A DNA stretch of 64,000 nucleotides, from assembly GCA_009691805.1 (NCBI GenBank), contig SIAK01000006.1, positions 1 through 64,000 of the forward strand, read 5' to 3'. Under the pieces are notes generated by a model, which did not search any database, was not told where the DNA came from, and saw only the letters and a program-made list of their open reading frames with translations. Position numbers and translations under genes: made by a program. How positions within the stretch are numbered: position 1 is the first letter of the stretch; every line of letters starts with the position of its first letter. Shown here one piece after another: positions 1-54,753 of this stretch. Source of the stretch: Phycisphaerales bacterium. Its GTDB lineage: Bacteria; Planctomycetota; Phycisphaerae; Phycisphaerales; SM1A02.

Positions 1-293
1 ACCGACGGAGTCGGTGAGGGGATGAAAGACTGAAGTGGACGCACGAATTCAGGCGTCTGCGATTCACTCGCAGCGCCTGAGTCGAAAGCAAGCGACGGAA
101 TTTGTCCGCGTTTCGCGGCAAATTTCGCGCTTGCGCTCAAACACGCACACTCAACTACCGACGGAGTCGGTGAGGGGATGAAAGACTGAAGTGGACGCAC
201 GAATTCAGGCGTCTGCGATTCACTCGCAGCGCCTGAGTCGAAAGCAAGCGACGGAATTTGTCCGCGTTTCGCGGCAAATTTCGCGCTTGCGCT
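1..293. repeat. Two identical 137-bp direct repeats with three hairpins each
   Basis: Positions 1-137 and 157-293 are identical base for base, with a 19-bp spacer (period 156). Each unit can fold into three hairpins. In copy 1 these are ACCGAC/GTCGGT (1-6 with 10-15), a 12-bp stem with one bulged T (50-62 with 68-79), and TTTG-CCGCG/CGCGG-CAAA (101-110 with 114-122, one bulge). The second copy ends three bases before the efp stop codon on the opposite strand, so efp transcripts would run into it. Copy 1 begins at the first base of the window, so more copies may lie outside. No convincing reading frame crosses it. It could be a mobile structured repeat, an RNA element or a 3' end structure for efp; its function is unknown. 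Confidence 0.9.
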
Positions 294-296
294 GAA

Positions 297-851
297 CTAC
301 GCCCGGCTTCGATAGGAACCGTCGTCGGTGCTCACGATGATTTTTTCACCGATGACGATGAACGGCGGAACGCGCGTCTTCAAGCCGGTTTCGCAGGTCG
401 CTTCCTTCAACTGATTGGTTGCGGTTGCGCCCTTGATGCCTGGCGATGTGTCGGTGATCGTGAGCGTTACCGTGAGTGGGAACTCGACGGAAATCGGCTT
501 GCCATCGCACCAACAGACGATGATGTGCGTGTTCGGAAGAATGAAGTGAGGGAGATTGCCGACGATTTCCTTCTGCAACTCGACCTGATCGTACGACTCG
601 AGATCCATAAACACGAATGCAGTGCCTTGTTGGTAGAGGTACTCCATCTGTCGACGATCGAGGTCGACCCGATCCACATGCTCGCCCGAGCGGAGGCGTT
701 TCTCATAGAAAGCGCCGCTCTTGAGGTCGCGAATCTTGATTTGGATAAACGCACGCAGGTTGCCTGGGGTGCGGTGCTCAAGTTCGGTGACGACGAAGAG
801 TTTGCCATCCATCTTGATGGCCATACCGTTAGCGAGATCGTTGCTATTCAT
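297..851 (-). CDS. efp: Elongation factor P with an atypical tip loop
   Basis: EF-P binds between the P and E sites of the ribosome and relieves stalling at proline runs. The 184 residues match the family's usual length and three-domain layout: an N-terminal KOW-like domain, then two OB-fold domains, the last ending in the typical P-P-F-I-V-I-G-E stretch. The loop that normally carries the modified lysine or arginine (PGKGxAF in E. coli, Lys34) reads T-P-G-N-L-R-A-F here, so Asn31 takes the place of Lys34. The usual lysylation or rhamnosylation therefore cannot occur at that residue, and no epmA, epmB or earP gene is in the window. The start is the ATG at 849-851. The gene is flanked downstream by the 137-bp repeats and has a 200-bp leader region upstream. 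Confidence 0.93.
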   Translation of the reverse strand: MNSNDLANGMAIKMDGKLFVVTELEHRTPGNLRAFIQIKIRDLKSGAFYEKRLRSGEHVDRVDLDRRQMEYLYQQGTAFVFMDLESYDQVELQKEIVGNLPHFILPNTHIIVCWCDGKPISVEFPLTVTLTITDTSPGIKGATATNQLKEATCETGLKTRVPPFIVIGEKIIVSTDDGSYRSRA

Positions 852-54246: not shown

Positions 54247-54753
54247 GATTGAGATTGATTGCGTGGGCGTCACCGCTCCTGGGCTGATCGAGGCGGTTGG
54301 AGCGCGCATGCCGGTTTCCGGCCGCAGCGCGGGTGAATGCCACTGCTCGCTTTCGAATCGCACACGATTGGTGGAATCTCGACACCTTAGTTTGTGCGTA
54401 CAAAGAAAGTTTCCGTTCCCTTGTCGTCGTTTTGCCGACGGAATCGAGCGGTCGAACACGCTATCAGAGGATCTGAGTTTCCGACTTTGAGGAGTGAGGA
54501 CAATTCAGTCGGAGAGGCGACGAGTGTGTCCGGATTTCTAGAGCAAAATGCGCAATAGCCAACAGCGATTGAGCGCTCGAGGAGCGCGAATTCCGCGGCA
54601 AGGGAATTGAATGTGGCGCAGTCCTGATTGTTTCCAAGCCATTTGATTGCGGTGAACTGCGAAAACAGGTGTCAGACCTGTTGCAGAGCGCGTAGCCATT
54701 CGAGTGGCGGCGAGCGAAACGCCACCTTGCAGGACGGCGGCGATCATTGCAAG
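54247..54753. other. 507-bp gap without a recognised gene
   Basis: No frame gives a convincing protein. Short palindromes are present, for example ACAGGT/ACCTGT (54665-54681) and GTGGCG/CGCCAC near 54703-54724, the second just before the membrane-protein gene. The stretch is AT-richer in parts (54360-54430). It may hold the promoter and leader of the membrane-protein gene. Confidence 0.45.

Follow-up and report, generated by a model that had tools for sequence, protein, structure and literature searches.

A structured, probably REP-like repeat family at gene ends in one order of Planctomycetota

The tandem array at efp

The sequence which we analysed (the window, 64,000 nucleotides from a Phycisphaerales bacterium) opens with a tandem array adjoining the gene efp, a gene name assigned in the preliminary description of this DNA (Table 1). 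Tandem Repeats Finder detected one array, at 1-293, with a period of 156 bp, 1.9 copies and a 100% match, which confirms the two perfect 137-bp copies originally noticed there. The identical cores (1-137 and 157-293) are separated by a 19-bp gap (138-156). The repeat had been described as finishing three bases ahead of the efp stop codon (297-299, − strand); this holds for the 137-bp identity, which ends at 293, and does not hold for the element, which in the family alignment goes on past 293 as GCGCTSAACTAC, so that the stop codon is part of it. On the + strand each unit had an MFE of −66.2 kcal/mol, where shuffled sequences averaged −47.4 (z = −5.1); the − strand gave z = −5.4, and folding recovered the three hairpins per copy that had been described (A, B and C; z about −5). 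Matches to a covariance model of hairpin B were found in the window at 45-94 and 201-250 (62 bits). A possible decayed copy at 54300-54424 (− strand), approximately 54 nt past a stop codon, was indicated by a nucleotide profile (E = 6e-5 in a small search); the structure model gave it just 12.4 bits (E = 0.16), and it is a doubtful copy.

Table 1 Features of the array and of the adjoining gene, in window coordinates.
Feature	Position	Strand	Description
Copy 1 and its spacer	1..156	+	137-bp core 1-137; GCGCTCAA end at 133-140; from the TRF period of 156 and the family alignment
Copy 2	157..302	+	Core 157-293; the element end crosses the efp stop codon (GCGCTGAACTAC, 289-300)
Hairpin A, ACCGAC-GGA-GTCGGT	1..15, again 157-171	+	Only in units with the 5' leader; presence variable in the alignment
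Hairpin B	47..82, again 203-238	+	One unpaired base on the 5' arm; loop in GATTCACTC; covarying stem
Conserved linker GTCGAAAGCAA	81..91, again 237-247	+	Family consensus GTCSAAAGCGAG
Hairpin C, exchangeable module	88..134, again 244-290	+	From the fold and from B/C combinations
CTCAACTAC junction box	150..158	+	Common to successive units
GTAG, read on the efp strand	297..300	−	TAG is the efp stop codon, from the element end; TAA or TGA in congeners
efp (elongation factor P), gene adjoining the array	297..851	−	ORF; orthologues 79-91% identical in five genomes

Position 1 of the window is also the start of its contig (C90) in G000, a draft genome of 92 contigs which is 94.6% complete. Another contig end (C21) matched bases 1-240 with a single mismatch at 111, and then ran into a further partial copy. 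As C21 carries this extra partial copy, the array at efp is probably longer than its visible part and is likely to have broken the assembly, which supports the earlier suggestion that it continues beyond the window.

Distribution and structure of the family

Copies were counted in the genome and in its relatives, as the preliminary description had proposed. A blastn-style search found 52 matches at approximately 40 places in G000, many of them in short arrays, and a search of 40 relatives at nucleotide level gave matches in three congeners only (G001, G002 and G003). Using a covariance model of hairpin B and the linker we found 74, 15, 34 and 126 copies in G000, G001, G002 and G003 respectively, and up to 21 copies (a lower bound) in each of nine genomes of a second genus, g48, copies which had been missed by a nucleotide search that covered some of the family. 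Wider models added several copies in g44 (genome G092), a set in G227 from another family (12 copies) and lone matches elsewhere; these are also lower bounds, as few candidates were scored per genome for g48, g44 and G227. In a 392-genome sample across the phylum the wider models found no element beyond the window's own genome. The exact core pattern, compared to 84,980 species genomes, matched only contigs labelled as Planctomycetia or as Planctomycetota MAGs, and as it was present in no viral contig a viral origin was rejected. The family was found by these searches in one order of Planctomycetota. When 4227 Rfam covariance models were run against the window at the gathering threshold and against five loci at a relaxed E-value, only tRNAs were identified and the element had no match. 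The suggestion of a structured repeat family was right.

The element is dispersed, with approximately 100-156 bp and two or three hairpins per unit. Aligned copies have a common order: an optional leader with hairpin A, hairpin B, the linker, hairpin C and a terminal GCGCTCAA, after which CTAC comes in most copies of the window's species. The loop of hairpin B is near-invariant (GATTCAYTC) and its stem, whose 5' arm has a single unpaired base, varies from copy to copy. Hairpin C is wholly different between copies and between genera. Two families of B stem were found (CAGGCG/CGCCTG and CAACCG/CGGTTG), joined with at least 5 kinds of hairpin C in many combinations, and this free combination shows that the B and C modules are exchanged.

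Arrays are built by sharing the CTCAACTAC box. Boxes of this type flanking single elements differ within the element, and were therefore read as unit ends and not as target duplications; among the aligned copies from the window's species and g48 we found neither a target duplication nor a terminal inverted repeat. In the window's species the arrays are direct tandems, with no inverted pairs seen, and in G003 head-to-head inverted pairs are common (at least 10 pairs, 75-89 bp apart). Most of the 12 copies in G227 start with CTAGAGC and finish with GCTCTAG, and these ends pair as a closing stem; of all forms of the element, this version with pairing terminal inverted repeats is perhaps the most complete. 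Most of the G227 copies (L207-L209 and L219-L227) have CTAG ends, from which one or both neighbouring genes obtain a TAG stop. Two three-unit arrays in unrelated places (L017:1998-2425 and L021:1992-2419) have the same order of long, short and long units and an identity of 87% over 431 bp, which would fit arrays being copied as a whole.

Pairing of hairpin B was examined in aligned copies, in which covarying base pairs had been suggested as a check, and such pairs were found. Among 32 distinct sequences 96.4% of cells were paired, two-sided changes were present in 84 cells vs 28 after shuffling, and the covariation score was 0.554 vs 0.136 for shuffled sequences and ≤ 0.10 for sliding controls. 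For 91 distinct sequences, including those from g48, the corresponding values were 94.3% paired, 234 vs 76 two-sided changes and a covariation of 0.522 vs 0.125, although this alignment was fitted to the model and its values thus lean towards it. Copies keeping the sequence and losing the pairing, named earlier as the case that would count against the family, were not seen. From these alignments, B pairing is maintained either by selection or by the copying of a palindrome. G-T pairs outnumbered A-C pairs in the direction of the element's forward strand (32:10 in B and 62:39 in C), in counts which are inflated by register artefacts and shared descent; wobble strand bias was therefore not considered decisive as a sign of RNA and was not used as proof.

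Placement at gene ends and turnover of copies

In G000 the GCGCTCAA end was ≤ 25 nt from the stop codon of a gene directed towards the element, or from a tRNA 3' end, in 27 of 36 clusters, and 32 of the 36 had the gene-end orientation; for random intergenic points the respective values were 5.9% within 25 nt and 46% in the right orientation. It should be noted that the 36 clusters are those with a readable neighbour, that the counts combine two readings of the G000 gene calls and that genes were called by a simple codon-usage script, a coarser method than standard gene finders. The opposite side of the element follows no such placement rule. The end of the element often contains the stop codon itself (TGA in TTGA or TAG in GTAG), and in 11 of the 12 G227 copies it provides a TAG stop at a constant offset. 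Copies also follow tRNA-Arg, tRNA-Leu and tRNA-Gly genes, including in other species, indicating that the supply of stop codons is not the whole story.

The proteins encoded by the adjoining genes are mostly ordinary housekeeping proteins; there is no transposase among them, though there is one phage-type integrase/XerC-like protein. Many of the genes which adjoin the element in G000 have roles in translation or transcription and encode Dus, an ABC-ATPase with ABC_tran_Xtn, MnmG, a NusG-like protein, Sua5, RlmN and BipA (L018, L019, L027, L033, L047, L049 and L051), as well as EF-P in the window. A bias of host-gene function towards translation was not evident in G003 or g48, and we make no claim of one. 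At L050:2019-2157 a gene on the opposite strand seems to read in from the GCGCTCAA side and to stop inside the element, which may there encode the C-terminal residues of that gene's protein.

The site at efp is empty in G001, G002 and G003, where EF-P is 88-91% identical and the stop codons are TGA, TAA and TGA respectively, vs TAG in G000. The element at efp would most simply be a gain in the window's lineage. At six G000 sites, the orthologous site in G001, G002 or G003 holds the element too. In the five shared sites which were compared, hairpin B was 64-79% identical between species, against a between-species background of 69%, and the best paralogue in the same genome was 83-100% alike in B. 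As shared sites carry species-specific sequence, the family turns over, with its sequence renewed within each species. Such renewal can be explained equally by replacement, by gene conversion or by repeated insertion at favoured gene ends. The recent duplication or homogenisation proposed for the array is supported. No closely related strains that differ in the presence of the element were found, which would have been direct evidence of movement.

Relation to known repeats and possible origins

Published REPs are intergenic, high in copy number, placed at gene 3' ends, clustered and able to supply TAG stops (PMC3733652), with a long hairpin containing a bulge (PMC6006769), and the REP / BIME / REPIN repeats include the GTAG and CGTC super-families (Di Nocera et al. 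2013, PMC3733652). The element resembles them: its copies are high-copy intergenic palindromes able to form hairpins, placed at gene 3' ends with termini often giving a TAG stop, and it shares the bulged hairpin, a GTAG or CTAG end which gives the TAG stop in some species, tandem clusters and, in G003, head-to-head pairs. However, REPs are 20-40 bp vs approximately 100-156 bp for the element with its two or three hairpins, and the element also differs in its invariant loop and linker, its direct tandems in the window's species, a tag which is not kept between species and the lack of any RAYT found. A GTAG/ATAG-type end was present in 24 of 38 G000 copies and CTAG in 8 of 9 G227 copies, and a GTAG/CTAG-type tag was missing from 37 of 39 G003 copies and 18 of 19 g48 copies.

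Known REPs are cut at the GTAG foot of the hairpin by a RAYT (Y1/HUH transposase) (PMC3733652, PMC8049555, PMC6006769). We found no match to a Y1 transposase (Y1_Tnp/RAYT) in G000, G002, G003, G092 or G227, which are draft genomes (G227 being ~100% complete), and the 19 Y1_Tnp loci inspected in g48 and G001 all lacked a flanking copy of the element. Four loci of G001 (L182-L185, ~390-420 codons) have a partial N-terminal Y1_Tnp match only, and none of them is flanked by the element. A RAYT/Y1 mover was rejected, being absent from five element-bearing genomes and, where present, not flanked by the element. With a tag that is not kept and no element-flanked RAYT, the element has REP-like behaviour but lacks two of the features that define RAYT-mobilised REPs. 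The earlier opinion that the unit does not match a REP thus stands for unit size, tag and transposase, and has to be corrected for genomic behaviour, which is as published for REPs (PMC3733652) and makes a new REP-like family a better name than an unrelated kind of repeat.

Other known systems were also compared. Planctomycetes class 3 TnpA-Y1 systems, in which "atypical secondary structures" flank a Y1 transposase gene and have a CnGA foot (PMC6006769), occur in the same phylum and have high-copy, REP-resembling atypical hairpins, but the element is found without a Y1 gene in five genomes and Y1 genes elsewhere are unflanked by it; a non-systematic reading of the element showed no CnGA foot. 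IS200/IS605 ends and TnpB omega-RNAs also have a bulged single-strand hairpin, and the end of the element may resemble the TCAA-like end of IS608. However, the TnpB zinc-ribbon domain PF07282 was absent from seven element-bearing genomes, and a TnpB/omega-RNA system was rejected on this basis. A CRISPR array, discounted in the preliminary description, does not fit the unit anatomy: units of 137-156 bp stand in direct tandem, with junctions alike, in place of short identical repeats with unique spacers. GCTCAAC fits the RYYYAAC of an integron attC, but the units read contain no GTTRRRY partner, and attC was rejected.

The array at efp is probably part of a REP-like family, made up of structured and non-autonomous DNA repeats which are mobilised in trans, and the best reading of the element is as a new family of this type, unusually large and well folded, outside the GTAG-REP/RAYT system. 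We infer mobility in trans. An enzyme supplied in trans would recognise the folded single strand by its loop and linker and copy it to new places, the part which RAYTs play for REPs; insertions at the ends of genes would persist by causing little damage or by preserving the stop codon; local slippage or unequal crossing-over at the CTCAACTAC boxes would give rise to tandems; and gene conversion or replacement would keep copies alike within a species. The mover could be a since-lost enzyme, a different recombinase or, as the genomes are drafts, an enzyme on a missing contig (partly excluded for G227). More specifically, and tentatively, the element might be a lineage-restricted, site-targeting hairpin element which is inserted in one orientation at stop codons and tRNA ends by a non-RAYT/Y1 enzyme and kept alike in each species by continual replacement.

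The main rival to the REP-like reading, which we consider rather unlikely, is a functional 3'-UTR RNA, whose hairpins, in the sense of the upstream gene, would protect or trim the 3' ends of mRNAs and tRNA precursors or bind a protein via the loop and linker. The fixed orientation, the way in which the element directly adjoins stop codons and the 3' ends of tRNAs, the invariant unpaired loop and linker alongside covarying stems and the six sites shared with congeners would all fit such a role. However, the element occupies only ~40 places in the genome, is missing at efp in three congeners, has no U-tract and turns over in sequence species-wide, and there is no consistent sense-direction bias of G-T over A-C pairs, the other strand being favoured by the counts if either is. 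Intrinsic and possibly bidirectional terminators, multiplied by recombination, would suit strong GC hairpins which often lie between convergent genes; this origin is improbable, as neither hairpin B nor C is followed by a T-run on either strand, the two terminator-pattern matches in the array have weak stems of 5 bp, such as shuffled sequences also give, and ordinary hairpin-plus-T terminators exist elsewhere in the window, for example at 1096-1074 (− strand).

MITEs resemble the element in being non-autonomous, short and dispersed, and the TIR-like ends in G227, which pair, and the fixed offset of the TAG stop there could suggest a MITE moved by a DDE transposase targeting stop-codon-like sites such as CTAG. 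This seems just as improbable as terminators, since TIRs and target duplications are lacking in the window's species and in g48 and no transposase is tied to the element. That a single repeat was falsely doubled in assembly was also considered, given the position of the array at the very start of its contig and the many copies at contig ends, but four congeneric genomes and g48 have independent arrays in the interior of contigs, with 2-4 diverged copies each, making an artefact extremely unlikely.

The initial observation was therefore real, and more general than could be shown by the window alone. REPs are little described outside the Proteobacteria, and this family provides a test case for the spread of tag-less or transposase-less REPs, having a clear structure, strong covariation, many species, sites held in common whose sequences are particular to each species, and genomes where the obvious mover, a RAYT, can be excluded. 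If the element moves, its enzyme would be new for such repeats; if it does not, its placement at gene ends would suggest that, in planctomycetes which are abundant in lakes, it functions as RNA at 3' ends.
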